Shown: piece after piece, positions 8,849-62,713 of the stretch
Position numbering within the stretch: position 1 is the stretch's first letter
How the letters are laid out: the number at the start of each line of letters is the position of its first letter
Source of the DNA: Methanosarcina barkeri MS
Lineage (GTDB): Archaea; Halobacteriota; Methanosarcinia; Methanosarcinales; Methanosarcinaceae
Direction of reading: 5' to 3'
Length of the DNA: 64,000 nucleotides
Assembly (NCBI RefSeq): GCF_000970025.1
Contig: NZ_CP009528.1
Location: 2,467,168 to 2,531,167 of the forward strand
The notes under the pieces: generated by a model
What the model was told of the DNA's origin: nothing
What the model saw: the letters and a program-made list of their open reading frames with translations, nothing else
Database searches by the model: none
Program-made: the position numbers and the translations under genes

Positions 8849-10504
8849 TTATTCACCCGCAAAAAGCTCAACAAATTCGAATTTCGTCACATCAAACAGG
8901 CCTTTATCTCCCAATTTAAGTTCAGGAATTACCAGAAGCGACATAAATGAAAGTGTCATAAAAGGTGACATAAGCGAGGTTCCCAGTTTCCGGGCTTCTT
9001 CATTTAACTGTTCGTAACTTGAAGCCACTTCTTTTCCATCCAGAGTGCTCATAAGGCCTGAAACCTCCAGTGGAAGATCAATAAGATTTTCTTTGGTCCC
9101 GACAACGATTCCCCCCTGGTTTTCGACCAGCCTGTTGACGGCTTCAACTATATCCTCGTCCGTTGCTCCGACTGCAATTATATTATGACTGTCGTGAGCA
9201 ATGCTGCTTGCAATAGCTCCTTTTTTCAGGCCTATGTTCTTAATGAAACCGATCTGGACAGGGTCATCGGCATACCTGCTCAGAACAACCATTTTCAAAA
9301 TATCCCTGGCAGGATCTGAAACCAAATTTCCGTTTTCTACTTTTGGAAGTGCCAATTCCTGACCTGTGACCAGTTCTCCATCCTGGGCAACTATTACCCG
9401 GATTTTTTTCATTTGTTCCCCGTTACTCCCGGAAGCAGGCACAGCCAGTTTTACATCGTCAATTGAAATTTTGCTTCTGTTAAATACGTTTTTTGCAGGA
9501 GCTTTTTCAACTGAAAAAAGAACCTTTCCGTCATCGTAAACGCAATTTCCGTCAATAAAGGTCTTCAGCACATTGAACACTTTCAGGTCGTCAACAATAA
9601 TAAAATCGGCAGGATCTCCCTCGCGCAGCATTCCGACATTAAGTCCGTAATGTTCCACAGGATTGATAACCGCTGCCCTTATGAGGTTATAAATATCAAG
9701 TCCTTCTTCCTGCCCGCGCCTGAGAAGCTTATCGATATGTCCCTCATATATCAGAGTATCAGGATGGGAATCATCGGTGCAGAGCATAACCGATTCGGGA
9801 TATTCATCTATCAATTTGTACAGAGTTTCAAAATTCCTGGCTGAACTTCCTTCTCTTATGAGGATCTTCATCCCGAGATTTATTTTCTCAACAGCTTCTT
9901 CGTATTCGAAGCACTCATGGTCTGTTGAAATCCCTGCAGCGATGTATTTCTGAAGATCTGCTCCCCTCAGGCCGGGAGCATGACCGTCTATAATTTTGCC
10001 GTACTTTTTTGCGGATTCCAGTTTCGCCATTACGTCTGGGAATCCTAAAATCACACCTGGGAAATTCATCATCTCGGAAAGGTAACACAGATCATCTTTT
10101 ACCAGCAGGCGGTCAACAGCTTCTGCATCAAGTGCTGCTCCTGAGGATTCAAAAGGTGTGGCTGGCACACACGAGGGAACTCCAAAATAGACTTTCAGAG
10201 GGGATCTTTTTGCATCTTCAAGCATAAACTCAATGCCCTCTTCCCCCATAACATTTGCAATCTCATGGGGATCGCTGACAACTGCAACCGTTCCTTTTGC
10301 AACAGCCATCCGGGCAAAAACTGAAGGCACGGTCATGGAGCTTTCTATATGCACGTGGGCGTCCACAAGACCGGGCAGGATGTACTGCTCGTTATCGTGT
10401 TCCTTTTCTTCGACACTAATAATCTTTCCGTTTTCAACGGTAATTTCTCCTTTGAACTGCCGCCTGGAAACGGCGTCAATAATAATCCCCGAGTATTTTT
10501 TCAT
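8849..10504 (-). CDS. ade: Adenine deaminase
   Basis: Converts adenine to hypoxanthine and ammonia in purine salvage. The 551-residue protein has the amidohydrolase layout of bacterial/archaeal Ade: metal-binding GLVDAHVHIESS (about residues 45-56), DPHEIANV, GHAPG, the STDHE motif, and CTDDSHPD with the catalytic aspartate. A C-terminal region contains HDSHNIIAVG and the final LLVIPELKLGDKGLFDV typical of the family. Length is normal for the family. Single gene on the minus strand. Confidence 0.95.
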   Translation of the reverse strand: MKKYSGIIIDAVSRRQFKGEITVENGKIISVEEKEHDNEQYILPGLVDAHVHIESSMTVPSVFARMAVAKGTVAVVSDPHEIANVMGEEGIEFMLEDAKRSPLKVYFGVPSCVPATPFESSGAALDAEAVDRLLVKDDLCYLSEMMNFPGVILGFPDVMAKLESAKKYGKIIDGHAPGLRGADLQKYIAAGISTDHECFEYEEAVEKINLGMKILIREGSSARNFETLYKLIDEYPESVMLCTDDSHPDTLIYEGHIDKLLRRGQEEGLDIYNLIRAAVINPVEHYGLNVGMLREGDPADFIIVDDLKVFNVLKTFIDGNCVYDDGKVLFSVEKAPAKNVFNRSKISIDDVKLAVPASGSNGEQMKKIRVIVAQDGELVTGQELALPKVENGNLVSDPARDILKMVVLSRYADDPVQIGFIKNIGLKKGAIASSIAHDSHNIIAVGATDEDIVEAVNRLVENQGGIVVGTKENLIDLPLEVSGLMSTLDGKEVASSYEQLNEEARKLGTSLMSPFMTLSFMSLLVIPELKLGDKGLFDVTKFEFVELFAGE

Positions 10505-10720
10505 GGGGATTTATTTCGCCCCAGCAATGTATAAATTTTGCCAAAAAGCCAGGATTTAAGGACTTGAAGAAAAAGAATAAAAAAGGAAGATACAGGTTAA
10601 TTGGTCGATTACCTTTCATCAAATGCAAAAAAACTATAGAAATATATAGGCACTTTTTTGTTGACTACAAACATCGGTTTTGACCATGTAAAAGTGGCAC
10701 GAAAAGATAAATAAAAGGTA
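10505..10720. promoter_or_regulatory. Divergent promoter region of ade and serC
   Basis: The AT-rich gap between the divergently transcribed ade and serC genes. A TATA-like stretch, AAGATAAATAAAAGG, lies at about 10705-10719 just before the inverted repeat of the serC leader. Nothing else recognised. Confidence 0.45.
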
Positions 10721-10802
10721 CACTGTTAAGTCTTCGGGGATGACTATATTACATGTTCGTCTGTAACTGGAAAATTTCTTATCCCCCTAAGTCTTAACAG
10801 TG
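10721..10802. promoter_or_regulatory. Imperfect 82-bp inverted repeat before serC
   Basis: The left arm CACTGTTAAGTCTTCGGGGAT pairs with the right arm ATCCCCCTAAGTCTTAACAGTG: ten outer base pairs are perfect, then AAG and the ATCCCC/GGGGAT block. The right arm ends 20 bases before the serC ATG, so a transcript starting upstream would fold here. It could be a regulatory leader or a small mobile-element remnant. Confidence 0.45.
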
Positions 10803-10822
10803 CCAAAAAAGGAAAAGATAAA

Positions 10823-11935
10823 ATGAAACCAACACGAGTTCCTAATAATCCTTGTTTTTCTTCTGGGCCTTGCGCCAAACATCCAGGTTATTCTGTTGAA
10901 GAGCTGAAGGATACACCTTTTGGCCGGTCACACCGGAGCAAACCTGGCAAGGAAAAATTAGCTGAAGCAATTAAAAGAACAAGAGATATGCTTGGACTTC
11001 CTGATGATTATCTGGTAGGTATTGTACCGGCTTCCGATACAGGCGCTTTTGAAATGTGCTTGTGGTCTATGCTGGGGTGTCGCGGGGTTGATGTCCTGGT
11101 TTGGGAATCTTTCAGTAAAGGATGGGCAACCGACATCACTAAACAGTTAAAATTAAAAGATACCCGAGTTTTTGAGGCAGAATACGGGAAATTACCAGAT
11201 TTAAAGAAGGTCGATTTCAAGAATGATGTAGTCTTTGTCTGGAATGGGACTACAAGCGGAGTCAAAGTACCTAATGGCGACTGGATTCCTGATGACCGGG
11301 AAGGGCTCACGCTTTGCGATGCCACTTCTGCTGTATTTGCTATGGACATACCCTTCCATAAATTGGATGTCATTACATTCTCATGGCAGAAGGTTTTAGG
11401 TGGGGAAGGTGCACACGGGATGCTGATTTTGTCTCCGCGGGCTGTTCAGCGATTAGAAAGTTATACTCCTGCCTGGCCATTACCCAAGATTTTCCGAATG
11501 ACCAAAGGTGGTAAACTGAATAAGGGGATTTTTGAAGGCTCTACTATTAATACCCCATCCATGCTGGCTAATGAAGATTGGCTGGCCACAATGAAATGGG
11601 CAGAGTCTATCGGAGGGCTTAAAAAACTTATCCAGCGGACAAATGAAAATCTGGCGGTCTTTGAGGCATTTGTTGCTAAAAATAACTGGATCCATTTTTT
11701 AGCGGAAACAAAAGAGATAAGATCCAGTACCAGTGTCTGCTTTAAAGTTGATTTACCCGACGAAAAGCTTAAAGCACTGATTAAAACGCTTGAGAATGAA
11801 AAAGTTGCTTATGACATCGGTTCTTACCGAGATGCACCTTCGGGTTTGCGCATCTGGTGCGGTGCTACCGTCGAGAAAGAGGATTTACAATGCCTCTGTG
11901 AATGGATCGAATGGGCTTACAATTTGGTTAAATAA
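10823..11935 (+). CDS. serC: Phosphoserine aminotransferase
   Basis: PLP enzyme converting 3-phosphohydroxypyruvate and glutamate to phosphoserine in serine biosynthesis. The 370-residue protein starts with the family pattern [16 protein letters not shown] and [10 protein letters not shown]. The PLP-lysine lies in [33 protein letters not shown] and the C-terminal [13 protein letters not shown] are also typical of the archaeal/alphaproteobacterial SerC branch. It is monocistronic and preceded by a striking inverted repeat. Confidence 0.94.
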
Positions 11936-12173
11936 TATTAATCCTTTTTGTTATCAGCAAAGAAGAATTCATAAGAAGCCATTAATATCTTTTTTGCTGA
12001 TAGCAAAAGGATATGTTTTATCCCAAAATTTGTCTCACGCGGACAGATATTAAATATCCCTTCAAAACCCTTTTTACACACTTGATTTATCAGAGAAATT
12101 TTCATTTGTCATTGGTTAAGGATTTATTTCCTTCTCCTGGTACTCTTTTTTGAGTCCAATCTATCACTTCTTA

Positions 12174-13440
12174 TTCAAACCATTCTTGTCTGAATCTTTC
12201 TCTGTTTACATGTGGATCCAATGCTTGACTTTCATATACACTCATTATAGTTTCAAAAGTTCTTTCAATTCCACATCTCTGAAGGATTACTGTCAATAAA
12301 TTTGCTGCATTCTCTGCAAATATTGTGCTCCAACATAAATGCGTATATTGAGCCATTTTTTCAGGATGAGCTGTTGAGTTTCTTACAAGAAAATATATTT
12401 TTCTGCTAACTATTAGTGTTAATATTGCTGTCCAGACTGCTAACTATTAGTGTTAATATTGCTGTCCAGATTAGAGCCAATATTGCTGTTCAGATTAGAG
12501 CCTCAATCACTGTACATTCTTTGTTTCAAGAACTTCAAGAGCGTATTTGCTTTTTAACTCCTTAACAGCAGTTATACATCCCATCTTACCCATACAATTT
12601 TGCGATGTCTTTTGCATTCAAACCATCTTTCTGAATATTTGTGATGTATATGTGATGCTTTTTGTCCTCGCTATTATATACCGCAACAAGACGTACAGAC
12701 ATCTCATCCTGCTTTTGCTTGCCTTTATACGCTCTTCTTTTGAATACTATTTTTATAACTATATCAATATATTTTCTAGAAGGTTGTTTGATGCATTCAC
12801 TACCAGTTTTCTCCATGAAATCTTTGCACTTTGTTTTTGGTATTCCTTCATCGATTGAAACAAAACAATAGGATCCATATTCTTCCTTATTCTTGAAACA
12901 AAATATCCCCCATTTTCTTCAACTCTTGCAAACATTTGAGTTTTGTAAAAACCAAGATCAACAAGCAGAATACGGTCTTTGATCCGGGGACCTATTTTTA
13001 ATGTCTTTATCTCAGCTGTTTTTTCAGAGTACAGAGCAACGGTTCTAGGTCCGTTAGCAACTGCACTTACCATAACTCCTACTTTTATGCCTGCGACTAC
13101 TGTTCTTGATCTTGCTGCTGGAAACTTGTCTGCTAAAGAGGAGTGAAGACGAACAATTGTACTGTCCTGAATGATAACATCCTAGAAGCTACATTTGGTT
13201 CTACAAATGGATTAAAAAATTAGACTTTAAGGTAAATATATACCTGAATTTCAGAATAATTTCTGATTTATATTTAACCCCAACAATGCCAATTATCCAA
13301 TAGTAGAAATGGATCGAGTTTTGAGACAACCTGACAGGGTCAATTTTACGTTCACATTTTATAAGACCGGGTTCTTTGGCAGTTTGCCTTAACCAATCTT
13401 TGGGAAACATTTCCCGAAGAGAGTCTTCAAGAGTAAGGGG
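12174..13440 (-). pseudogene. IS4-family transposase remnant
   Basis: Transposase fragments in order on the minus strand: an N-terminal piece about 13310-13430 (MFPKDWLRQTAKEPGLIK), then a central piece 12759-13190 (RILLVDLGFYKTQMFARVEE, with the DDE-type aspartate), a shifted piece 12586-12816 (VRLVAVYNSEDKKHHIYITN), and a C-terminal piece 12174-12356 (HLCWSTIFAENAANLL). Frameshifts, stops and a 34-bp internal duplication separate them. It cannot make an active enzyme. Confidence 0.8.
12403..12470. repeat. 34-bp tandem duplication inside the dead IS
   Basis: Two adjacent identical copies, 12403-12436 and 12437-12470 (each starts CTGCTAACTATTAGTG and ends GCTGTCCAGA), followed by a shorter related unit. 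Replication slippage in the decaying transposase gene would explain it. Confidence 0.85.
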
Positions 13441-13605
13441 GAACGAGGCAACATAGATACACGAATATTGGATTAATTATATAAAAACATATAGAGAATC
13501 AATTGTCTAACGCTTAACCGATGAGGCATGGACTAATTATGCAGTTCCATTGGATCACATATGCGAAGGAAAATTTAGATAATTAGTAGATACGAGGGTT
13601 ACTAT

Positions 13606-14259
13606 ATGGCAAATCTTTTTCTAAACAACTCCATGAGCATTTATGAAATAGATTCCCTGGCACGTAAATATTGCTCGGAAAAGCAATGGGGAATGGGTAT
13701 ATTCATAGCAGTCTTTGACCCATCCATAAATGACGTTTTGCTGGTTAAAACGGGACAATATGCCATGGACGCTGACGGAGGTACTCCGTGGAATCTTCCT
13801 GGAGGAGGGGTTGAACCGGGTGAATTGCCCAGTCATGCCGCTCTACGAGAACTAAAAGAAGAAACCGGTTTATCATCTCCTTCAGGTTTACGATTTGCTG
13901 CTTGGCTGGAAAGGCCTTACTTTCGATCACGATGGGGAACTACTGGAGAGTTGGTCATCTTATTTTGCGGAGTAGATAGAACTAATGGATCTGGACTTCG
14001 TCCAGCACCGCCAGAAATAGTGCAGTGCGGATTTTATCACTTCAATTTACATGAATGGCTTAATGTACCTTCAAAAGGAAATGATAACCATCCTCTATCA
14101 CCACTTCCTCGACATTGGGTCTATTGGACTTTGATAGCTCAAATGATGCTCAAAGATCCGAAAATGTTTCCAGTTATCCACGAGTACTCTTCATCTGAGG
14201 ATATGGCACTTCCTCTAGAGGGATTAAACTATGGATGGGGATTGAATTATAAATTTTAA
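13606..14259 (+). CDS. Nudix hydrolase next to a SIR2-TPR gene
   Basis: A 217-residue protein with a complete Nudix box: G67, E73, REL at 81-83 and EETGL at 85-89. This predicts Mg-dependent hydrolysis of a nucleoside diphosphate linked to another moiety. The C-terminal half (HPLSPLPRHWVYWTLIA and a tail ending NYGWGLNYKF) is not a standard accessory domain I recognise. A GAGGGT site precedes ATG by seven bases. Its 3' end overlaps the convergent SIR2-TPR gene by 86 bases. In this setting NAD- or ADP-ribose-derived nucleotides are plausible substrates, which is inference. Confidence 0.85.
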   Translation: MANLFLNNSMSIYEIDSLARKYCSEKQWGMGIFIAVFDPSINDVLLVKTGQYAMDADGGTPWNLPGGGVEPGELPSHAALRELKEETGLSSPSGLRFAAWLERPYFRSRWGTTGELVILFCGVDRTNGSGLRPAPPEIVQCGFYHFNLHEWLNVPSKGNDNHPLSPLPRHWVYWTLIAQMMLKDPKMFPVIHEYSSSEDMALPLEGLNYGWGLNYKF

Positions 14260-16546
14260 AGCAACAAATGAGATTATCATCGCCAATGTTCTTAGCGATT
14301 TTCTCTCCTTGAGATCCCAAGTTTATTATTCTATTTAGGCTCTTTCGATCACTAATTTCATATGCTTTATCATACGCATCAATGAGCATATCCATTATAT
14401 TTTCAAGACGAAGTCGATCGTTTTTGTACTTATCTTGTTCATCTTCAGACTGAAAAAGTGATTCTATGATATTAAGCAAATTGGACAAACAATTTTGAAT
14501 TTCCTCTTGATTCTCGGCCAAAGAAAGAAGATCCTGCCAAACACGAGCCTGTTGATGCGATTCCTTTTTCTTTGCCCAGTAACCTAAGACTTTTTTGAAT
14601 TCCTTATTAGCTTTATATATTTCTTTTTTAAACCCCAGTAGTTGAGCTCTGCGGAAACGAAGTTCAATTTTGTCCCTTGTAGGTTCACCACTGCCAACTT
14701 TTACTTGTTTGAGATAATCTCGAGTTCTATTTGATTCTTCCCATGCTACATCCAACCAATGATCCCGGACTTTTGATTTGCTGTGGAGCAAACGCAAACG
14801 ATGAACCAGAAGTAAATTACGTGACTGCTGAAAACAACTACGTGGGTCTCCAATTCTAGCATGGAGGGCTAAAGCTTCATTCAACGATTTTTCTGCTTCT
14901 TGAAACATACTATCAGTCCTCTCTGCAAGTTGAGAAATAATCAAACCCTGTGCGTTGAGAATGGATGCTTTTCTAGCTATATCTCCAGCACGAGATGCGA
15001 AATCAGAAGCTTTATAGCAACATTCGATTCCCTTAATTTTATCTTTGAATATTCCTTTTCGTCCCAATCCATAGACTAGCCCCCGAAGAAAAAGTAGATA
15101 AGCCATTAATCGAGGATAATCGTAAGCCCTCTTTTGCTTCTGTAATTCAGACTTTATCTTCACTAATTCTTGTTCAATTTTATCAAGTTCGTCCAGGGCA
15201 ATGTCAAAATTCCGATCGATTCGGAGAATATTTGCCAGTTCAAGATGTGCTTCAACCATTGCCACAAGATCTCCTTGACTCCGAAACTTTTCCATAGCCT
15301 TCAGAAGATCTTCTTTGCTAGGTTTTTCCTCATCACTTCTACGGGTGATCGAGTAAGTTGTAGCACGCAATCTTTCTACTTCAGCCTTCTCTTTATCATC
15401 TTTAGCGCACTCATCAGCGTATTTTAATTCTAGATTAGCATTTGTTAAGTTACGCACTCTAATCCATAACATTGCTGCACATAGATGACGCTTGAAATCG
15501 GTAATATTTTCAACCCAGGAAAGAGAAGACTTTCTCTCACGTTTAAGGCTATTAAGATCTGCTTGAAAACTCTCTAATTTACTATTCAACTTTAGGTACT
15601 CTGGGGACTCATCAGAACTAACTAATTCTGTGAGGATATTTTTTATGGCGGAACTGCTGTTACCTTCGACAAGAAAAGAGCGTGGCTCTCGTTTTATGAG
15701 AACTTCTCTCAATGAAATATCTTCCCATTTTGCAGCCGACAAGTTTTTTGATGCTTCTTTTAGCAGATTATTCCTCTGACTCTGAAAATCACTGGAACTA
15801 GAAGTGTACTTTAACGTAGTCTCAGGTAGAAACTTGAACCAATATACTTTTTGGTCTGAATCTGTCTTCAGCAATTCAGGATGTACACTGAAATGGTCAT
15901 TTCCGCTGTAACCAAGGAAGATGAAATCTCGTTCTTGCAAACAAGTAGACAACACTTTTGCTGTGCTTTCACCAAGTCCAAGTCCAACTCTATTAAGAGT
16001 AAAACGGATCGATTTATATTTCGACAACCCTGCTTTATTCGGCTCGATAGAACCATGAAGCTTAAATAAATGTGAACTAAAGTCTGTCGGCTGTTTCTTA
16101 AGGAATTCTCGATAATGTTTCTCATAAAATATTGGCTGACATGCAATTCCTATGTTTTCGCAAGCTTTCTCAATCAATGTGTCAACGTTTGTCGTAAATA
16201 CACAATGCCCCTTGAGCAAAGCCAAAGCCAAAAAGTAGTGATTATAGTTAGGTATTCCAGAATCTAATGAGTTATAAAATTTGAGAGAGTTATTGCCGTG
16301 TACCTGCTGAATCACCTGAAGCAATACTTCAGGCCTCAATCTCTCGGTTATTAAATCAATATCTTTATTCTTTGTATGAGTCCAAGTGTCTGGACCAATA
16401 CTGCAGAGGAATTGCTTACTGAAATCTTTAAAATTTTTCAGTCCAGACTCAATAGATACTCCTGCACCAACAAAAAATGCTAATTTCTTCTTCGGTGCGG
16501 TTATTGCCTCATAAAGTAAATTATTCGGATCGTTCTCAGAACTCAT
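14174..16546 (-). CDS. SIR2-domain protein with TPR-like C-terminus
   Basis: A 790-residue protein, probably an NAD-consuming effector. The N-terminal SIR2 domain (about residues 1-280) shows GAGVS (27-31), TTNVD (118-122) and catalytic-position histidine H164 in KLHGSI, plus IFLGYSGND. The remainder (about 340-760) is all alpha-helical with TPR-like repeats (AMEKFRSQGDLVAMVEAHLE, DFASRAGDIARKASILNAQG). SIR2 fused to repeat or sensor domains is common in antiphage NADase systems. AAGGA lies eight bases before ATG. It is divergent from the AAA-RyR gene and convergent with the Nudix gene. Confidence 0.85.
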   Translation of the reverse strand: MSSENDPNNLLYEAITAPKKKLAFFVGAGVSIESGLKNFKDFSKQFLCSIGPDTWTHTKNKDIDLITERLRPEVLLQVIQQVHGNNSLKFYNSLDSGIPNYNHYFLALALLKGHCVFTTNVDTLIEKACENIGIACQPIFYEKHYREFLKKQPTDFSSHLFKLHGSIEPNKAGLSKYKSIRFTLNRVGLGLGESTAKVLSTCLQERDFIFLGYSGNDHFSVHPELLKTDSDQKVYWFKFLPETTLKYTSSSSDFQSQRNNLLKEASKNLSAAKWEDISLREVLIKREPRSFLVEGNSSSAIKNILTELVSSDESPEYLKLNSKLESFQADLNSLKRERKSSLSWVENITDFKRHLCAAMLWIRVRNLTNANLELKYADECAKDDKEKAEVERLRATTYSITRRSDEEKPSKEDLLKAMEKFRSQGDLVAMVEAHLELANILRIDRNFDIALDELDKIEQELVKIKSELQKQKRAYDYPRLMAYLLFLRGLVYGLGRKGIFKDKIKGIECCYKASDFASRAGDIARKASILNAQGLIISQLAERTDSMFQEAEKSLNEALALHARIGDPRSCFQQSRNLLLVHRLRLLHSKSKVRDHWLDVAWEESNRTRDYLKQVKVGSGEPTRDKIELRFRRAQLLGFKKEIYKANKEFKKVLGYWAKKKESHQQARVWQDLLSLAENQEEIQNCLSNLLNIIESLFQSEDEQDKYKNDRLRLENIMDMLIDAYDKAYEISDRKSLNRIINLGSQGEKIAKNIGDDNLICCFKIYNSIPIHSLIPLEEVPYPQMKSTRG

Positions 16547-16902
16547 ATCTCATTCCTTCTATCGTACGAAGAGTCACTTAATTTGTCGGCAACTGACATA
16601 ACCTATTATGCACGTTGGGTCTTAAATTTCAAATATTCCAAACGGAAACAAGCAATGTTAATGTTTATTGATAATCTGCCTAAAATTAATTTTAAATGAT
16701 GATATAGTTGACTAATTTTCTCAGTTGCAACACAAATCGTTTTTTGAGACAACAGCTTTAATGTTATTTTTCCACTCGAGTACTTAATTATTAAAAGAGG
16801 TGAATCTACTTTTCTGTTGAAATTAAAACATAAACTTATTTATTCTTTAAAAACTACGATCAAATATATAAAAGAAAGACAGATCAAAAGGAAAAACTTC
16901 CG
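16547..16902. promoter_or_regulatory. Divergent promoter region between SIR2 and AAA-RyR genes
   Basis: A 356-bp AT-rich gap from which the SIR2-TPR gene (minus) and PfkB-AAA-RyR gene (plus) diverge. A TATA-like AAATATATAAAAG lies at about 16863-16875, roughly 30 bases before the plus-strand start. Shared control of the two genes is plausible. Confidence 0.5.
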
Positions 16903-19900
16903 ATGACAAAAAAGGAATCTAAAATTGTGGTAGCTGGAGACGTAACTGTTGATTGGTTTATGTATCCTGTCAAAGCCCGTGATGAAGGTGAGAACTGGCG
17001 TTTACATGACGCATCCCATGCAGATGTACTCCCTGGCGGAGCAGCGTTACTGACCAGTTTTATTAAACAGTCAATTGAAGAAGAGGAAATATTAGCCACC
17101 GTGACGGGGTCAGAGTTACCAGAAAAAAAGTTACGTAATTTTTCACCGGAAGAAATAATCCACTCCAATGCTATGCTGGATAACTTCAAAACTTCAGGTG
17201 ATAAAAAGACTGAAATTTTACGTATAAAAGAGTTCTCAGGATATATTGGTCCTTCAGAGAACAAACCACCCCCATGGATGTTGTCACTGGTATCAAAGAA
17301 AGTCAATGCCGAAATCATTGTACTTGACGATGCAGGAAACGGATTTCGTAAGATGGAAAATTTGTGGCCTAAGGACTTAGAATCTGTCGAGGACTCGATT
17401 GTGATATATAAGATGAGTCTTCCTCTTCTTGATGGCAGTCTTTGGAAGAAAGTTAACGAAATGCATCCAAAAAATCTGATTGTAATTATAAATGCAAGTG
17501 ATCTTCGAAGAACAGCAGGAATCCATATAAGCAAATCCCTATCCTGGGATCGTACTGCGAAAGACTTAGTATATGAGCTAAACAGATCAGATCCACTTAA
17601 GTCATTGCATCAATGTCCTTATTTAGTAGTATTATTTGGTACTGATGGAGCTGTTCTTTACCGTAGAGTAAAGGAAAGAGAAGATGAAGCTTTCGTTATT
17701 TTTGATCCATGTTTACTTGAAGACTCTTTTGCATCAAATATTAATGGCAATATGATAGGTCTGACGTCGATTTTTACTGCAACACTTGTTAAACAACTCG
17801 CAAAAGAAGGTTTCTATGGACTTATAACTGGAATCCAGAAAGGACTTGCTAATTCACGTTCACTCCTTGAGATCGGGTACAAAAAGAATAATGGATCTGA
17901 AAGCCATGATGCTCTTGAATACCCGAAGCTAAAAGAGATTTCGGAAGGAAGTGTTAAACATACTTATTCCTGTAGTTCTATAGAACTGCCTACTAATCTT
18001 AAAAATCCAGATCCCAATTTCTGGCGAATTCTTGATCATAACACCCATAATATCCGACAACTTGTTGCACGGGAGATTGTCCTAAAAGGAAAAGCAAACG
18101 GATTGGAAAATGTACCTATTTGTAAATTTGGTGATATTAAAACTATTGATCGTGCTGAGATTGAAAGTTATAGTTCAATCAAGGAACTGATAATTGAATT
18201 TCTTAAGAATCAAAAACCAAAAAATCCTCTTTGTTTTGCTGTATTTGGACCCCCTGGCTCTGGCAAATCCTTTGGTGTCAAGCAAATAGCCAAATGTATC
18301 GATACAAATAGGGACCTACTCGAAAGCATATCTTTCAATGTTTCCCAGTTTGGTGACTATCAAGATATGGTTAACGCATTTCATAAAATACGGGACCTCG
18401 CTCTTTCAGGCAAGGTGCCATTTGTATTTTTCGATGAATTCGATTCGGATTGTAATGGTCAGCCGTTAGGATGGCTGAAATACTTCCTGGCGCCTATGCA
18501 GGATGGCGAGTTCAAAGAAGGCGATTCGATACATCCTATTGGAAATGCCATCTTTGTGTTTGCTGGTGGAACAAGATATACATTCGAGGATTTCGTTCAA
18601 AACTCCCATGGCAATGGCTCAACCCCCATTGTTGTTTCATCTGAAGACAATAAGACTGATCAAAACTCTGTACAGGAAACCGAAGATAAGGATAAAGAGT
18701 TTCGAAATGCAAAAGGGCCTGATTTTGTTAGTAGACTCCGAGGCTTTATCAATGTTATGGGACCCAACCGCCAGCCCTCAAAGGAAGATGATGATGACGC
18801 ATTCATTATCCGAAGAGCACAATTATTGAGAGTAATGCTTGAAAATGACCAGAGAGCCACCAGTCTTTTTAACTCCAAAAGAGAACTAAGTATTGACGAT
18901 GGCGTCCTACGGGCATTGCTAAACGTGACCAGGTATAAGCACGGTGCTCGTTCTATGACCGCTGTTATCGAAATGAGCCGTCTGGCAGGTAAAAAACGTT
19001 TTGATCTTTCAGCTCTTCCAGTTAAGAAACAGCTTGATATGCATGTGGATGCAGATGAATTCTTTTTTTTGACAGAAAAAGAACGGTATCAGTCGATGCT
19101 CCTGCTGCGAGATCTTCCTGACCCCAAAGAGACTTCCTTTCTCAAAAAGGAAAATTCAATTGTAGAGTCCGTGGCCGCAGCTATGGATACATCTATGTGT
19201 GAAAATAAGGTGAGTCCTCGGAAAGGCAAGATAACAAAATTAGATAAAGACGCTTCTTTTGAGGAACTTAAAGATGCTGCTGAGGATATTCCCAACAAAC
19301 TTTGGGCTATCAATAATGGCATCAGAAAGATCACAGGCAAAACACCACATATACCAGATATCACTGGTGATGAAATTGAGACATTTGCCAGGCTTGAATA
19401 TGGACGACTGTGCCGCAATAAAAGACTTCGACAATTATCAGACAGTAGTGAGGGTAAAACCTTCAATAATTCTATGTTACAATCTAAGAATTATGATCAA
19501 CTTGAAGAAAAAGAAAAAGATAGGTTTCGGGAATTGGTCTACACAATTCCTCCAATACTCAAAAAGGCTGGATATGAAATCTACCGCATGAAAAATGTTG
19601 AGGAAATTAGCGATCCAGAAATTATTAATCGTCTTGCCAGGGATCTTCATGAAAAATATGTTCAAGAGAGACAGCTTAAAGGAGAAAACCGTGAAACGAA
19701 CCCGTCCTTAGTTAAATTTGAAGATCTGCCAGAAGATATCAAGGAGGCTAATTTTGACAATATAAAAAAGATTCCTGAAAAACTCAGTTGGATTCACTAC
19801 AGTACTCGACGCATTCAACAGGATGAAGAGCAAAGAGAATTAACTCTAACAGAAAAAGAGATTGAAACAATGGCAAAAAGAGAACATGACCGCTGGGTCT

Positions 19901-20100
19901 GGCAAAAGATCATGCAGGGATGGACCTATAAAGAAGGCAAAAAGGACTTTGTTAATAAAACTAGCCCATTTATTGTTCCGTGGAACAAGCTTCCACCTGA
20001 TACTCGAATTAATGACTTTAATGCCGTTCGCCTTATTCCAAAACTGCTCAAAGAGGCTGGATACAAAGCCTACAAGTCTGATTCCGAGAAAAGCGATTGA
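16903..20100 (+). CDS. PfkB-like / AAA+ ATPase / tandem RyR-repeat protein
   Basis: A 1065-residue multidomain protein. Residues 1 to about 345 resemble a PfkB/ribokinase fold (KIVVAGDVTVDWF; GG at 45-46 in LPGGAALLTSF). The GAGD-type catalytic motif near residue 280 is replaced by NGNMIG, so this part is probably a ligand sensor. An AAA+ domain follows, with Walker A GPPGSGKS (about 449-456) and Walker B VPFVFFDEFDSD (about 506-517). The C-terminus holds three RyR-type repeats (about 823-895, 903-965 and 985-1058). The last has HDRWVWQKIMQGWTY and PFIVPWNKLPPDTR, the ryanodine-receptor RyR motif. It pairs with a divergent SIR2-TPR gene. A role as sensor/ATPase of a conflict system is inferred. 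Confidence 0.85.
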   Translation: MTKKESKIVVAGDVTVDWFMYPVKARDEGENWRLHDASHADVLPGGAALLTSFIKQSIEEEEILATVTGSELPEKKLRNFSPEEIIHSNAMLDNFKTSGDKKTEILRIKEFSGYIGPSENKPPPWMLSLVSKKVNAEIIVLDDAGNGFRKMENLWPKDLESVEDSIVIYKMSLPLLDGSLWKKVNEMHPKNLIVIINASDLRRTAGIHISKSLSWDRTAKDLVYELNRSDPLKSLHQCPYLVVLFGTDGAVLYRRVKEREDEAFVIFDPCLLEDSFASNINGNMIGLTSIFTATLVKQLAKEGFYGLITGIQKGLANSRSLLEIGYKKNNGSESHDALEYPKLKEISEGSVKHTYSCSSIELPTNLKNPDPNFWRILDHNTHNIRQLVAREIVLKGKANGLENVPICKFGDIKTIDRAEIESYSSIKELIIEFLKNQKPKNPLCFAVFGPPGSGKSFGVKQIAKCIDTNRDLLESISFNVSQFGDYQDMVNAFHKIRDLALSGKVPFVFFDEFDSDCNGQPLGWLKYFLAPMQDGEFKEGDSIHPIGNAIFVFAGGTRYTFEDFVQNSHGNGSTPIVVSSEDNKTDQNSVQETEDKDKEFRNAKGPDFVSRLRGFINVMGPNRQPSKEDDDDAFIIRRAQLLRVMLENDQRATSLFNSKRELSIDDGVLRALLNVTRYKHGARSMTAVIEMSRLAGKKRFDLSALPVKKQLDMHVDADEFFFLTEKERYQSMLLLRDLPDPKETSFLKKENSIVESVAAAMDTSMCENKVSPRKGKITKLDKDASFEELKDAAEDIPNKLWAINNGIRKITGKTPHIPDITGDEIETFARLEYGRLCRNKRLRQLSDSSEGKTFNNSMLQSKNYDQLEEKEKDRFRELVYTIPPILKKAGYEIYRMKNVEEISDPEIINRLARDLHEKYVQERQLKGENRETNPSLVKFEDLPEDIKEANFDNIKKIPEKLSWIHYSTRRIQQDEEQRELTLTEKEIETMAKREHDRWVWQKIMQGWTYKEGKKDFVNKTSPFIVPWNKLPPDTRINDFNAVRLIPKLLKEAGYKAYKSDSEKSD

Positions 20101-20181
20101 AACATGTTTATCTCCTGAGCCATAATACGAGAATACAAAAGTACAACGAAATATAAATACAATACAAAAGTACAATAATAC

Positions 20182-21042
20182 ATGGGAAAAAGTCATACAG
20201 AGATAAAAGGGCTAAAAATCCGGAAAATGAGGCGCGATGAAGCCGAATTTGCTATCCAAATGGCAACCGGCGAAGGATGGAACCCTGGCATCCATGACGG
20301 GGAAATTTTTTATGAAACTGACCCTGAAGGTTTTTTTATTGCAGAAGTTGAAGGAGATCCCATAGGCTGTGCCTCTGCTGTCGCATATGACGATTTCTTT
20401 AGTTTTTTTGGTCTCTATGTGGTTAAACCCGAATTCAGGGAAAAAGGAATTGGGACGAAATTAACTGAAAAATCCCTGGAACATCTGGAAAACAGGAATA
20501 TAGGACTTGATGGAGTATTGGAAAACGAAAAGAAGTACCAGGAGTTTATGAAGTTCAAGTCCTTTTACAGCAACCTGCGTTTTGAAGGAATTGGAGGAGG
20601 AAAAGTTCTGGATGGGCTTGTGAAAATCTCAGACGTCTCATTTAAAAGCCTGCTTGAGTACGACAGGGAAATGTTTCCGGCTCCAAGGTCTACTTTTCTG
20701 GAAAAATGGATTAAACAACCTGATTCTTACGCCTTTGCAGCCGTTGAATCAGGAAAGCTGAAAGGATACGGCGTTATAAGGAAGTGCCAGAGCGGATACA
20801 AAATAGGCCCTCTTTTTGCCGATGACACGATAACGGCAGAAGAAATATTTCTGGCTCTCAAGGCCTCTGTTCCGGAAGAAGTCATATATCTTGATGTTCC
20901 GGAACCAAACAAAAAAGCAATGGAAATTGCAAATAAATATGGAATGACTGTAATGTTCAAAACTATCCGGATGTACAGCCGGGAAGAGCCTGATATAAAC
21001 CTTGAAAAGGTTTACGGGGTCACAACTTTCGAGCTTGGGTGA
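20182..21042 (+). CDS. GNAT-family N-acetyltransferase with two domains
   Basis: A 286-residue protein. The N-terminal GNAT domain contains FFSFFGLYVVKPEFREKGIG, including the acetyl-CoA-binding R-x-x-G-x-G loop (about residues 85-95). The C-terminal half (about 150-280: YAFAAVESGKLKGYGVIRKC, YKIGPLFADD) is a second GNAT-like domain of the YitH/Acetyltransf_18 type. Substrate unknown. No ribosome-binding site is obvious before 20182; Met16 is an alternative start. It appears unrelated to the preceding defence-like block. Confidence 0.82.
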   Translation: MGKSHTEIKGLKIRKMRRDEAEFAIQMATGEGWNPGIHDGEIFYETDPEGFFIAEVEGDPIGCASAVAYDDFFSFFGLYVVKPEFREKGIGTKLTEKSLEHLENRNIGLDGVLENEKKYQEFMKFKSFYSNLRFEGIGGGKVLDGLVKISDVSFKSLLEYDREMFPAPRSTFLEKWIKQPDSYAFAAVESGKLKGYGVIRKCQSGYKIGPLFADDTITAEEIFLALKASVPEEVIYLDVPEPNKKAMEIANKYGMTVMFKTIRMYSREEPDINLEKVYGVTTFELG

Positions 21043-22416: not shown

Positions 22417-25400
22417 ATGTCCCCCAAAGCCGGATGGCAATTCTGGATAGACCGCGGAGGCACGTTTACTGATATCGTAGCCCGCAGCCCTGATGGAAAA
22501 CTGATTACTCACAAGCTTCTTTCCGACGATCCGTGTCACTATAAAGATGCAGCTATGCACGGCATCCGGCAGATTCTCGGGCTGCCCGGAAACGCACCTC
22601 TACCTGCTGAAATCATAGAATCCGTGAAAATGGGAACAACAGTCGGCACAAATGCTCTTCTAGAGCGGAAAGGGGAACGAACTGTACTTGTTATAAATAG
22701 AGGGTTCGGGGATGCTTTAAGAATCGGATACCAGAACCGCCCGGATATTTTTGCTCAGAAGATCGAACTTCCGGAACAGCTTTATGAAAAGGTTATCGAG
22801 GTTTCCGGAAGGGTCGGAGCCGATGGAAAAGAGCTTGTGCCTCTTGACCTTGAAAACGCAAAAAAAGCACTTGAAGCAGCTTTCAAAGCCGGGATTCGCT
22901 CGGCTGCAATCGTACTTATGCATGCGTACAGGTATCCTGAGCATGAACTCAAACTTGGCAGACTTGCCAGAAAAATCGGTTTTACGCAGGTGTCTCTTTC
23001 CCATCAGGCAAGCCCGTTAATTAAACTCGTAAGCAGGGGGGAAACAACCGTAGTGGATGCATATCTCTCTCCTGTGCTCCGCAGGTACGTTAATATGGTA
23101 CAGGAATCCCTCGAGGAAGAAAGGAAAGGGAAAGAAAGCGGGGATGAAATCGAAAAAGAAAACGGAGATAGGACAAAAAAAGATAGCGACGATGGGTCAG
23201 AAAGAAAAATTGGAGATGGGACAGAAAAAGATAGCAGAGAATATAGCGGGGACGGAAAAGAGAACGAAGCTAAAAGAAGTCCCAGGCTTATGTTCATGCA
23301 GTCCAGCGGAGGACTTACGGACGCGGAAACTTTTCAGGGCAAGGACTGTATTCTGTCAGGTCCTGCCGGTGGGATCGTTGGAGCAGTTGCAACTTCGGAA
23401 ATGGCAGGGGCAAGAAAAATAATCACTTTCGATATGGGAGGCACATCTACTGATGTAGCCCAGTACAGCGGGGAATATGAGCGAAGCCTTGAAACCGAGA
23501 TTGCAGGAGTACGCCTGCGTTCGCCTATGATGCGTATCCATACGGTTGCAGCAGGCGGAGGTTCCATACTTCATTATGAGGGAGGCAGGTTCAGAGTAGG
23601 TCCGGATTCGGCTGGTTCGGACCCTGGGCCGGCATGTTACCGAAAAGGAGGACCTCTTACGGTTACTGACTGCAATGTCATGCTTGGAAAACTACAGCCT
23701 GGGTTTTTCCCCAGAATCTTTGGGCCCAATGCTGACCAGCCCCTTGACTCCGAACTTGTACGCAGGAAATTCGAAGAGCTTGCAGAGAAGGTTTCAGACA
23801 AAGATAAAACCGAAGGCAAAACCGAAGGCAATATCTGGACACCTGAGCAGGTAGCCGAAGGCTTCCTTTCGGTTGCGGTCGAGAATATGGCAAATGCTAT
23901 CAAGAAAATCTCTGTCCAGAGAGGATACAACATAAAAGAATATACCCTCTGCTGCTTCGGAGGAGCTGCTGCTCAGCACGCCTGCAGGGTTGCAGACAGC
24001 CTTGGGATCAAAAGCATTTTCATTCATCCGTTTGCAGGTGTGCTTTCGGCATATGGCATGGGACTTGCAGATCAGAGGCTTATTAAAGAGCGCTATATAG
24101 GCAGCGAGCTCTCGGACATGCTGGTAGAGAGTTTGAAAACAGTGTTTTCCGGGCTTGAGCATGAAGGTCGCCTGCTCATGCTCGAACAGGGCGTGCAGGA
24201 AGCCAAAATTACTGCACTTTATAAGGTACATATACGTTATGCAGGTTCGGATACGCAGCTTGTTATTGATTTTGCGGATACGGCTAGTCTCCGGAAGGGT
24301 TTTGAGGAAGCCCACAGGAAGCGCTTCGGGTTTGTAATGGAAGGCAAAGCCATGGTTGTTGAAGCAGTTTCCGTAGAGACCATCGGAATCAATGAGAGGG
24401 TTCTGGACCCTGTGCTGGAAAAGGAAGAGAATCCTGTTTTCTCTCCTGTCGTTGCAGTGCGAATGTACAGTAATGGCAAGTTTCATGATACCCCTGTTTT
24501 TCAGAGGGATGAGCTCAAGCCCGGAACCCATGTAAGCGGCCCGGCGGTGCTCATAGAAAAAAACACAACCATTGTGCTCGAACCCGGCTGGGAAGGCACG
24601 ATTACTGAACGCAACCACCTTTTCCTTAAAAGGAAAATTCCGCTCTCGGTCCGTGCAGCTATAGGAACTAATGTTGATCCTGTAATGCTCGAGATTTTCA
24701 ATAACAGATTCATGTCAGTTGCCGAACAGATGGGTTTTACTCTGCAGAACACAGCTCATTCGGTAAACATAAAGGAGAGACTGGATTTTTCTTGTGCACT
24801 TTTTGACAGTCAGGGGAACCTGGTAGCAAATGCTCCCCATATCCCTGTGCATCTGGGTTCAATGGGAGAATGCGTAAAAGCACTTATCCGGACGCAGTTG
24901 CAGGAGATGCATGCCGGAGATGTATATTTGATCAATTCCCCTTACCACGGAGGAACCCATCTCCCTGATATCACGGTTGTTACTCCAATGTTTGGAAACT
25001 CCGGGGAAATTTTATTCTATCTGGCTTCAAGAGGTCATCATGCCGATGTTGGAGGGATCAGCCCAGGGTCTATGCCTCCGAACAGCAGGACAATTGCTGA
25101 AGAAGGGGTATTGAGCAAGGGCATGAAAATCGTAGAACAGGGCCATTTCTGTGAAGAAAGGCTAAAGGCATGGCTGGACTCGGGAAAATACCCTGCAAGA
25201 AACCCTGACCAGAACCTTGCGGACATCCGAGCACAGGTCGCAGCAAATGAAAAAGGCTTATCCGAACTGCACAGGATGGTTGAAGAATTTTCCCTTGAAA
25301 CGGTTGAAGCTTACATGGGACATGTGCAGGACAATGCCGAGGAAGAGGTCAGAAGGGTTATTGACAGGCTTAAAGACGGGGAATTTACTTATGCACTCGA

Positions 25401-26213
25401 TGATGGGAACGTAATTAAAGTGAAGGTTACGATTGACCGTAAAAACCGAAGCGCCATAATTGATTTTACAGGTACTTCTCCACAACTCTCAAATAATTTC
25501 AATGCTCCTTCATCGGTTTGCATAGCTGCTGTACTTTACGCCTTCAGGACGCTTGTAAAAAGTGATATTCCCCTAAACGCAGGCTGCCTGAGACCGCTTG
25601 AAATTATTATTCCTGAGGGTTCCCTGTAAGACCAGAACCACCTGCTGCCGTTGTTGCAGGTAACGTTGAAACTTCGCAGTACATTGTTGATGCTCTTTTC
25701 GGAGCTCTTGGCACGCTTGCGGCTTCCCAGGGTACAATGAATAATTTCACTTTCGGGAATACCGATTTCCAGTATTATGAGACCATTTGCGGAGGTTCAG
25801 GAGCAGGCTCGGGTTTTTCAGGAACAGATGCCGTGCATACGCACATGACCAACTCCAGGATCACAGACCCTGAAATTCTTGAAACGAGGTTCCCGGTTTT
25901 GCTTGAGGAATTTTCCACCAGGGAAGGAAGTGGCGGAGACGGTAAATTTAGAGGGGGAAATGGGGTTGTCCGAAAGCTCAGGTTCCTGAAAGATATGAAT
26001 GCTGCCATTCTTTCAAGCCACAGGAAATTCCCGCCTTTTGGGCTCAAAGGAGGAATGCCCGCAAGATGCGGAAGAAACGCAATTGTCCGCAGGGACGGCA
26101 ATGTTCTTGAAATTGGAGGCCAGGCCGAAGTTGAACTGAAGGCCGGCGAGCTTTTTGTGATCGAAACGCCGGGAGGAGGAGGATATGGCAAGAAAGAAAA
26201 ACTCGAAGGCTGA
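22417..26213 (+). pseudogene. 5-oxoprolinase / hydantoinase A+B fusion with one frameshift
   Basis: ATP-dependent 5-oxoprolinase-type enzyme. HyuA occupies about residues 1-720 ([34 protein letters not shown]) and HyuB follows from about 755 ([31 protein letters not shown]). The frame stops at 25627-25629 directly after PEGSL and resumes one base off with RPEPPAAVVAGN through GGGGYGKKEKLEG at 26213. A lost G (CTGGTA to CTGTA) at about 25626 explains it. The intact protein would be about 1265 residues. A Lys/Glu/Asp-rich linker of about 58 residues interrupts HyuA near 229-286. A sequencing error is possible. Confidence 0.88.
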
Positions 26214-61572: not shown

Positions 61573-62713
61573 GTAGGAGTTACGCAGTTGGCTCCTAGCA
61601 TATTGTTTTTTCCAAACTTTCAAATATTTGAATTAATTTAACGTGTATTGGGGATTCCTTAAGTATTCTGTCACTGCCACTCTTCTAATTTTCATAGCAC
61701 TTTCAAACCAGGATATTCCACTTTTGATTCTTTGTAATTCCAGTCTAAGAAAAGCTCTTAATGAGAACATTATATGTGCTCTTTGTGATTCTTCCTTTCT
61801 TGCCTGACATTTTTCGACACCACAGAACTGTTTTATTCCCCTATGATATTCCTCAATTTTCCATGACTTCTTTGCCAAATCTTCACGTTTTGCTTCATCC
61901 ATCTCTTGCACATCTGTAACCCAGTGTTGCGTGTCTCCATTTTTTGAAACTATCCTAAACACCTTTACAAATCCATATGCTTTGAGGTGAACCACACGTC
62001 CTTTTGGAGGAATATCTACTGTTTCAAGTGGCACATTTCCCTTGTTGTCAGGATTTACCAAACGATTATTTTTCAATCTTGTAAGGAAATGCCACTCTTT
62101 CTGTCTAATGGCTTTAAGGTTTTTCACACTTGCATACCATGTATCAAATAAAACGAATTTGGGATTAAAACCACGTTCTTCGGCCTTGTCAAGCATATCA
62201 CGGAAATGGTCATTCTTTGTTTTGTCGTCTACATCGATGTTATAAATTCGAAAATCGATAGGTATAACGGTTGTACCGTCAGTCCAAACTAAGGTAACCA
62301 GGCCTATTCCCTTTACAGTACGATGATGTTTTCCACTCCACATACGACGAACAAAAGCAATTTCTTCTGCGTATGGTTTATCTAATGTTGAATCATCAAC
62401 AATTAGGTATCCTCCCTTAAGCTTGACATAACTTTTTACTTCCTCCCATAGTGCTTCCGTGTCTGGAGGTTGCCTTTGAAGGCAACGAGTAAAAGCATCA
62501 TGAGAAGGAGCATTAGCTATGTCTGGATAACATCTAGCAGCTTCAGTACAGCTAAAAACGTTAGAAGCCGCAATGAGAAAATTAATGTAGTCAATGTCGG
62601 TACACTTAGGTGGATTTATGTCCATAACTCCGTACGTTTTTAGAGAAACACTAAGCCATAAGTATATTTATAAAGATATCAAGTTTTCGGCATTTTAACT
62701 GCGTAAGTCCTAT
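61573..62713 (-). mobile_element. IS701-like insertion sequence inside an ABC ATPase gene
   Basis: 1141 bp with 17-bp inverted ends: GTAGGAGTTACGCAGTT at 61573-61589 and the complement of ATAGGACTTACGCAGTT at 62697-62713 (15 of 17 match). It is flanked by a GTA duplication (61570-61572 and 62714-62716). One intact transposase gene lies inside, so this copy may still be active. Confidence 0.87.
61633..62625 (-). CDS. IS701-like DDE transposase
   Basis: An intact 330-residue transposase. Acidic catalytic positions are visible in LIVDDSTLDKP, FVLFDTWYASVKNLK and the C-terminal KSWKIEEYHRGIKQF..CQAR (YxxxIKQ type). Typical of the DDE_5/IS701 group widespread in Methanosarcina. It occupies nearly the whole element. 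Confidence 0.88.
   Translation of the reverse strand: MDINPPKCTDIDYINFLIAASNVFSCTEAARCYPDIANAPSHDAFTRCLQRQPPDTEALWEEVKSYVKLKGGYLIVDDSTLDKPYAEEIAFVRRMWSGKHHRTVKGIGLVTLVWTDGTTVIPIDFRIYNIDVDDKTKNDHFRDMLDKAEERGFNPKFVLFDTWYASVKNLKAIRQKEWHFLTRLKNNRLVNPDNKGNVPLETVDIPPKGRVVHLKAYGFVKVFRIVSKNGDTQHWVTDVQEMDEAKREDLAKKSWKIEEYHRGIKQFCGVEKCQARKEESQRAHIMFSLRAFLRLELQRIKSGISWFESAMKIRRVAVTEYLRNPQYTLN

Follow-up and report, generated by a model that had tools for sequence, protein, structure and literature searches.

It has long been asked whether cyclic ADP-ribose signals are received directly by RyR domains. RyR domains bind cyclic ADP-ribose isomers, and phage RyR proteins have recently been found to bind and cleave cyclic ADP-ribose signals (PMC13232231). 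DUF4062 has been described as a TIR-like NADase family that acts in phage defence (PMC13174449). The stretch analysed here (the window) comprises 64,000 nucleotides of the genome of Methanosarcina barkeri MS (contig NZ_CP009528.1, positions 2,467,168 to 2,531,167), and its gene of interest encodes a predicted ribokinase-fold domain lacking the canonical catalytic base, followed by an AAA+ core and four RyR units. We give a rough probability of 0.5 to reading this protein as a nucleotide-gated AAA+ regulator that belongs to defence or stress networks centred on nicotinamide adenine dinucleotide (NAD+), in which RyR pairs sense an ADP-ribose-type molecule.

The gene (positions 16903..20100 of the window, forward strand) is complete and encodes 1065 amino acids, as supported by its open reading frame (ORF), its orthologs and the ratio of nonsynonymous to synonymous substitution rates (dN/dS). 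A Pfam scan of the protein recognised RyR (in two stretches) and AAA and left the N-terminal 372 residues blank, and no significant PADLOC match was obtained. A ribokinase fold without its catalytic motif, joined to AAA+ and RyR repeats, had been proposed in a sequence-only reading of this DNA, and this description is confirmed as a whole, with the number of repeats corrected. An ortholog in another Methanosarcina genome (G1110) is 72% identical and lies at the matching chromosomal site; between the two genes, dN/dS was 0.19 overall and below 0.5 in each domain. The degeneration of RyR units A and B in the window protein might indicate a decaying fusion or a functionless pseudogene, but the full-length ORF in all major relatives, the low dN/dS and the conserved AAA+ motifs leave this explanation with almost no probability.

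Residues 1-345 (16903..17937, forward strand) are predicted to form a ribokinase/PfkB-fold domain. The AlphaFold2 model, which was built from a 22-sequence alignment, had a predicted local distance difference test (pLDDT) score of 88 and a predicted template modelling (pTM) score of 0.91, and in a Foldseek search against the PDB only ribokinase/PfkB-type structures were found among the top 50 matches listed (best E-value 8e-11). The dead PfkB-type fold suggested earlier thus agrees with the structure prediction that had been named in advance as its test. Root-mean-square deviations from the PDB matches are 6-11 Å and template modelling scores by target are 0.44-0.59, and it is because of these large deviations and moderate scores that the predicted fold is called diverged. 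Although residues 1-345 can be regarded as PfkB by predicted fold, they are not recognised as such by sequence profile: Pfam gave nothing at E < 1 in this domain, the PF00294 profile included; a 22-member profile of the domain did not detect PfkB among PDB sequences; and an hhalign comparison with eight genuine PfkB proteins of related genomes did not detect PfkB either (12.8% over 21 aligned columns). The fold assignment therefore depends on structure prediction. The 21 aligned columns centre on FGTDGA, matching the PfkB nucleotide-loop strand.

The glycine motif of the N-terminal domain (GG, residues 45-46) is present as noted before. The catalytic Asp of the PfkB GAGD motif is absent, also as claimed, but NGNMIG, which had been taken for its remnant, only overlaps the actual position. 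Family alignment and model together place GLTS (residues 286-289; 17758..17769, forward strand) there, with Ser289 replacing the catalytic Asp and model helix 287-324 as the counterpart of the helix that the GAGD anion hole should open. None of 22 diverse aligned members carries Asp at this position, where Ser, Thr, Ala, Pro, Leu, Asn or Val is found instead, and GAGD is kept in all eight PfkB proteins from related genomes. G12, D143, R202, S214, W215, E273 and G282 are invariant in the same 22-member alignment. Because the Asp is gone in 22 members while these other positions are invariant, the domain appears from alignment and model to be retained under constraint without the canonical catalytic base. 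A conserved polar cluster within the ribokinase fold (D143, D200-R202, S214 and E216) would be compatible with an active kinase that uses an unusual catalytic residue, which we consider very improbable, as the PfkB catalytic Asp is replaced family-wide and no conserved acid stands at the GAGD place. In four Chlorobium-type members (L097, L102, L105 and L106), a short tandem duplication (CRMSWQHGSAALL-like) was observed near the N-terminal glycine motif.

The AAA+ ATPase core spans residues 386-720 (18058..19062, forward strand) and was identified by Pfam AAA (E-value 1.7e-4, above the cut-off) and by invariant columns. Walker A (GPPGSGKS, residues 449-456; 18247..18270, forward strand) and Walker B (FFDEFD, residues 509-514; 18427..18444, forward strand), both located by invariant columns and motif positions, are retained as the sequence-only reading had stated, and are accompanied by an arginine-finger-like SRLRG (residues 610-614) and a sensor-2-like GARSM (residues 681-685). 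GPPGSGKS, FFDEFD and SRLRG are near-invariant among archaeal and bacterial members, and the R and S of GARSM are invariant in the family. Given this conservation of motifs, the AAA+ core likely hydrolyses ATP.

The C-terminus matches Pfam RyR (PF02026) with an E-value of 2.9e-15 and 56.7 bits against a cut-off of 27.4, and the assignment is also backed by a PDB profile and by fold. The AlphaFold2 model of this region (pLDDT 81.5, pTM 0.69) contains four helix-helix-helix-strand units, rather than the three RyR units counted earlier. Unit A (residues 746-809; 19138..19329, forward strand) is degenerate and corresponds to the "partial unit" that had been placed near residue 785; an extra unit is indeed present there, as one half of a pair with unit B. 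In unit B (residues 822-895; 19366..19587, forward strand), the HxxW pocket motif has lost both its H and its W (EYGRL), and unit C (residues 905-970; 19615..19812, forward strand) is a short half-unit with HxxY. These three units were delimited by AlphaFold2 and unit alignment. Unit D (residues 984-1058; 19852..20076, forward strand), delimited by Pfam and unit alignment, is canonical, with H995, W998 and D1038. It is the sole canonical unit of the window protein, in which A and B are worn.

The units pair as A with B and C with D. The order A-B-C-D of the window is matched in the alignment with a relative, L003, in which B and D are canonical, A and C are short, and the motif of unit B is intact (EHNRW). 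Other relatives contain a single C+D pair. The structures most similar to the C-terminal model are Repeat12 of human RyR3 (with ADP/AMP-PCP) and the complete RyR1/2 channels. In view of the unit order, the single-pair relatives and these closest structures, the RyR tail of the family is best read from the model as one or two tandem Repeat12-like pairs, and that of the window as two. The proposed likeness to animal ryanodine receptors is accordingly borne out for the tandem Repeat12 domain and does not extend to the channel part: no channel or transmembrane pore domain was found in the Pfam scan of the window protein.

Proteins with the pseudokinase-AAA+ chassis apparently constitute an undescribed family, with members in archaea, Bacteroidota/Chlorobi and Bacillota as well as on plasmids. 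Relatives include a Methanosarcinales metagenome-assembled genome, Bacteroidetes, Desulfosporosinus and further archaea of the phylum of Methanosarcina. Members were identified in 22 of 395 Bacteroidota/Chlorobi-group genomes and 6 of 398 Bacillota genomes, and plasmid-borne members occur in Streptomyces and Methylobacterium. The full RyR form is present in one of 30 further Methanosarcina genomes. Pseudokinase and AAA+ core are the constant part of the family and the tail is variable, consisting of one RyR pair, two RyR pairs, a SLOG-like domain (three Bacillota members: L088, L089 and L091) or nothing. At least seven changes of tail type are seen on the AAA+ tree, in which the members with a double RyR pair, the window protein among them, group in a single supported clade. 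The SLOG-like tail shares 32% identity with the N-terminus of a SLATT/DUF4231-type protein of L092 (6190-7899, reverse strand). In this protein, whose gene lies 42 bp from an RyR-type member, a SLOG-like domain and a SLATT/DUF4231-type region are fused. A phage origin of the AAA+-RyR gene was considered and rejected, as the phage collection gave no full-length match. A single viral contig (L086) carries a relative, which is without the RyR tail.

Neighbouring genes of family members mostly share their strand, and apparent operons with a TIR or DUF4062 gene occur in four distant lineages, with a fifth lineage having a SLOG-like/2TM (two-transmembrane) gene. A TIR-NB-ARC-TPR gene lies 161 bp downstream of the member in L002, where a NADAR gene is located 4.4 kb upstream, and a TIR gene lies 42 bp from the member in L087. 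DUF4062-STAND genes flank L003 on both sides; in L042, a DUF4062-WD40 gene is 17 bp off and a second DUF4062 gene is divergent; and in L092 the adjoining SLOG-like/SLATT-type gene is followed by a DUF4062 gene as second neighbour. A SIR2 gene is found near the Methylobacterium plasmid member (L055). The cleanest case is G001, whose only two DUF4062 genes flank the family member, and the only TIR_2 gene of G297 likewise adjoins its family member. On the AAA+ tree, the neighbour state changed at least six times.

Residue offsets of the phage protein RyDEP (H75, W78, H100 and D117) were taken from PMC13232231 and mapped by spacing only. L003, L040 and L042 reproduce the H/W/H/D spacing of RyDEP (0, +3, +25, +42) exactly. 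In the window, by residue spacing alone, H995, W998 and D1038 of this pocket are kept and Ser1021 stands at the H100 position. Such resemblance would also suit a different role: the RyR part would switch off NAD+-derived signals as an enzyme or a sponge, unit D would hydrolyse or sequester cyclic ADP-ribose signals made by TIR-type neighbours in the manner of RyDEP, and the AAA+ core would control access. Both residues of the catalytic dyad of RyDEP (H75 and D117) have counterparts in the window (H995 and D1038), all four ligand residues are present in the three relatives just named, and RyDEP homologs cleave or sequester signals (PMC13232231). However, other RyDEP homologs tested bound without cleaving although their residues were conserved (PMC13232231), the window lacks an H100 counterpart, and an enzyme role leaves both the swap from RyR to SLOG-like tails and the AAA+ motor unexplained; we therefore regard this role as unlikely.

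Because of the anatomy of the protein and the frequent position of its relatives beside NAD+-destroying enzymes, it probably functions in antiviral or stress signalling, as an ATPase sensing ADP-ribose-like molecules, and not as a sugar enzyme. The sequence-only reading had likewise favoured ligand sensing over sugar metabolism, which is still the best reading given the Asp loss, the RyR/SLOG-like swap, the NADase-type neighbours and the binding by RyR domains (PMC13232231). From these observations we infer a ligand, a direction of control, a partner, a defence role and an output. The C-terminal-most RyR pair (C+D) would bind an ADP-ribose-type molecule, that is an NAD+-derived signal or product, in a pocket comprising H995, W998 and D1038. 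Binding may change how the AAA+ core is assembled or its ATPase state, and the core could in turn remodel or switch a partner, most likely the adjacent NADase-type effector where one is present. The dead ribokinase domain might act non-enzymatically as a nucleoside- or nucleotide-binding, allosteric or protein-docking module.

Several observations weigh against this regulator reading. Ser1021 occupies the position of the phosphate-contacting H100 of RyDEP. Three members have neither an RyR nor a SLOG tail (L054, L086 and L039, the last sharing its genome with another member), and the SLOG identity of the Bacillota tail is based on motif resemblance and a YpsA-SLOG match at an E-value of 0.18, the only one given by Pfam. 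When all TIR_2, SIR2_2 and DUF4062 genes were counted in ten genomes, one lay at most two genes away in 6 genomes against 0.06 expected, but the genomes were chosen non-randomly and the null is random gene order though defence genes cluster, which makes the probability optimistic; thus, only the direction of the association is safe. Members of Chlorobium-type genomes, which have a fixed chromosomal place, and those of Desulfosporosinus, other Clostridia and others have no NADase neighbour. The G1110 ortholog stands alone between adenine deaminase and GNAT genes with neither SIR2 nor NUDIX, so that the SIR2 and NUDIX neighbours in the window may be coincidental. The fixed place, the members without NADase neighbours and the lone ortholog would also suit an AAA+ protein that senses nucleotides for housekeeping and plays no part in defence, such as a regulator or chaperone in nucleoside or NAD metabolism, and that sometimes comes to lie in defence islands. 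This alternative is doubtful, though less so than the enzyme or sponge role, as the family is patchy elsewhere (including within Methanosarcina, as given above), its TIR/DUF4062 operons arose repeatedly, and members are also carried on plasmids.

In the window, the gene belongs to an accessory island of about 9.7 kb (10505-20181) between an adenine deaminase gene (8849-10504) and a GNAT gene (20182-21042), which are directly adjacent in four other Methanosarcina genomes (L125-L128). The island contains a serC-type gene, a transposase fragment, a NUDIX gene, a SIR2 gene and the AAA+-RyR gene. At the G1110 site (L134), the AAA+-RyR gene is the only one of these. It is thus an accessory insertion that either predates the SIR2/NUDIX block or can be separated from it, and the lone ortholog rules out that SIR2 and NUDIX are obligate partners. 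The SIR2_2-type NADase-like protein (14174..16546, reverse strand; Pfam SIR2_2 E-value 5e-12), which has a helical C-terminus, is encoded divergently, 357 bp from the AAA+-RyR gene. It contains GAG, TNxD and LHG motifs, its closest PADLOC model is ThsA (E-value 2e-10), and it has no match among PDB sequences and no SLOG match. A NUDIX hydrolase (13606..14259, forward strand; Pfam E-value 1e-16) adjoins SIR2 in the same island and has at most a putative link to the AAA+-RyR gene. No DUF4062 gene lies beside the AAA+-RyR gene and no TIR gene was found in the window locus, the two TIR_2 matches of the genome being elsewhere. The serC-type phosphoserine transaminase gene (10823-11935, forward strand; TIGR01365 E-value 2e-220) is not at that place in relatives, and the transposase fragment is of the DDE_Tnp_1 type (12762-13073, reverse strand). 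A second DDE transposase is located at 61636-62625 of the window. A hydantoinase A/B gene at 22417-26213 (forward strand) seems to be split: a 1070-amino-acid ORF ends within Hydantoinase_B and the remainder seems to lie in a 158-amino-acid ORF at 25737, with a longer ORF in L128, possibly reflecting a frameshift.

The window protein shares with PfkB/ribokinase (PF00294) the predicted fold, the GG motif and the FGTDGA strand, but it differs in the family-wide loss of the GAGD catalytic Asp and the lack of Pfam-level similarity. With RyR domain proteins (PF02026; animal Repeat12 and 3nrt of B. thetaiotaomicron), it has in common the tandem pair and the HxxW pocket of unit D, whereas its RyR part is joined to AAA+ and a dead kinase, has four units of which three are degenerate or short, and comes without a channel. 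RyDEP belongs to the same domain family, and its ligand and catalytic residue spacing is equalled in several relatives; however, RyDEP is a glycosidase encoded by phage in which RyR protomers form a homodimer (PMC13232231), and in the window protein the RyR part is the host-encoded tail of an AAA+ protein and has no H100 counterpart. RyR proteins of other prokaryotic types, which carry TrkA_N or RelA/SpoT domains, resemble the window protein in their C-terminal C+D pair and in nearby TIR, DUF4062 or NUDIX genes, but their output is of the membrane/RCK or RelA/SpoT kind and not pseudokinase-AAA+. Among them are membrane-type TrkA_N-RyR proteins of archaea with the C+D pair in the RyR tail (L044, L045, L047 and L048), several of them near TIR-NACHT-TPR or RelA/SpoT and NUDIX genes, as well as a RelA/SpoT-TPR-(SLOG)-RyR protein (L046, 9812-12397). 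A similar RyR-tailed protein lies beside a DUF4062-type gene in Methanosarcina (L138, 855-3419).

The pseudokinase-AAA+-RyR architecture and its operons are not described in the RyR, NAD-network and DUF4062 literature searched, which did not cover older reviews of prokaryotic RyR domains, so that an earlier mention is possible. The family offers soluble, host-encoded RyR pairs, in NADase-type operons and on an AAA+ motor, with which the receptor idea could be tested, and a ribokinase fold stripped of its catalytic base yet kept across bacteria and archaea. We tentatively suggest, at somewhat less than even odds, that it represents a new class of immune regulator, in which host RyR pairs act as NAD+-signal receptors gating AAA+ control of TIR/DUF4062 NADases, RyR and SLOG-like sensors are interchangeable, and animal Repeat12 shares ancestry with such receptors. 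Family loci resemble Thoeris (TIR plus SIR2-SLOG ThsA) in their TIR/SIR2 NADase-type neighbours and SLOG-like/RyR sensor domains, but sensor and effector are unfused, ThsA with SLOG is missing, and AAA+-pseudokinase is foreign to Thoeris. They resemble Swarozyc (DUF4062 TIR-like NADase; PMC13174449) in the DUF4062-STAND genes adjoining L003 and L042 and lying second next to L092, whereas the characterised Swarozyc proteins act via their own auxiliary domain, with no mention of an AAA+ or RyR partner (PMC13174449). Because defining features of each of Thoeris, Swarozyc and PfkB were looked for and are missing here, we place the window protein outside all three, as a variant of NAD+- and nucleotide-centred conflict systems.

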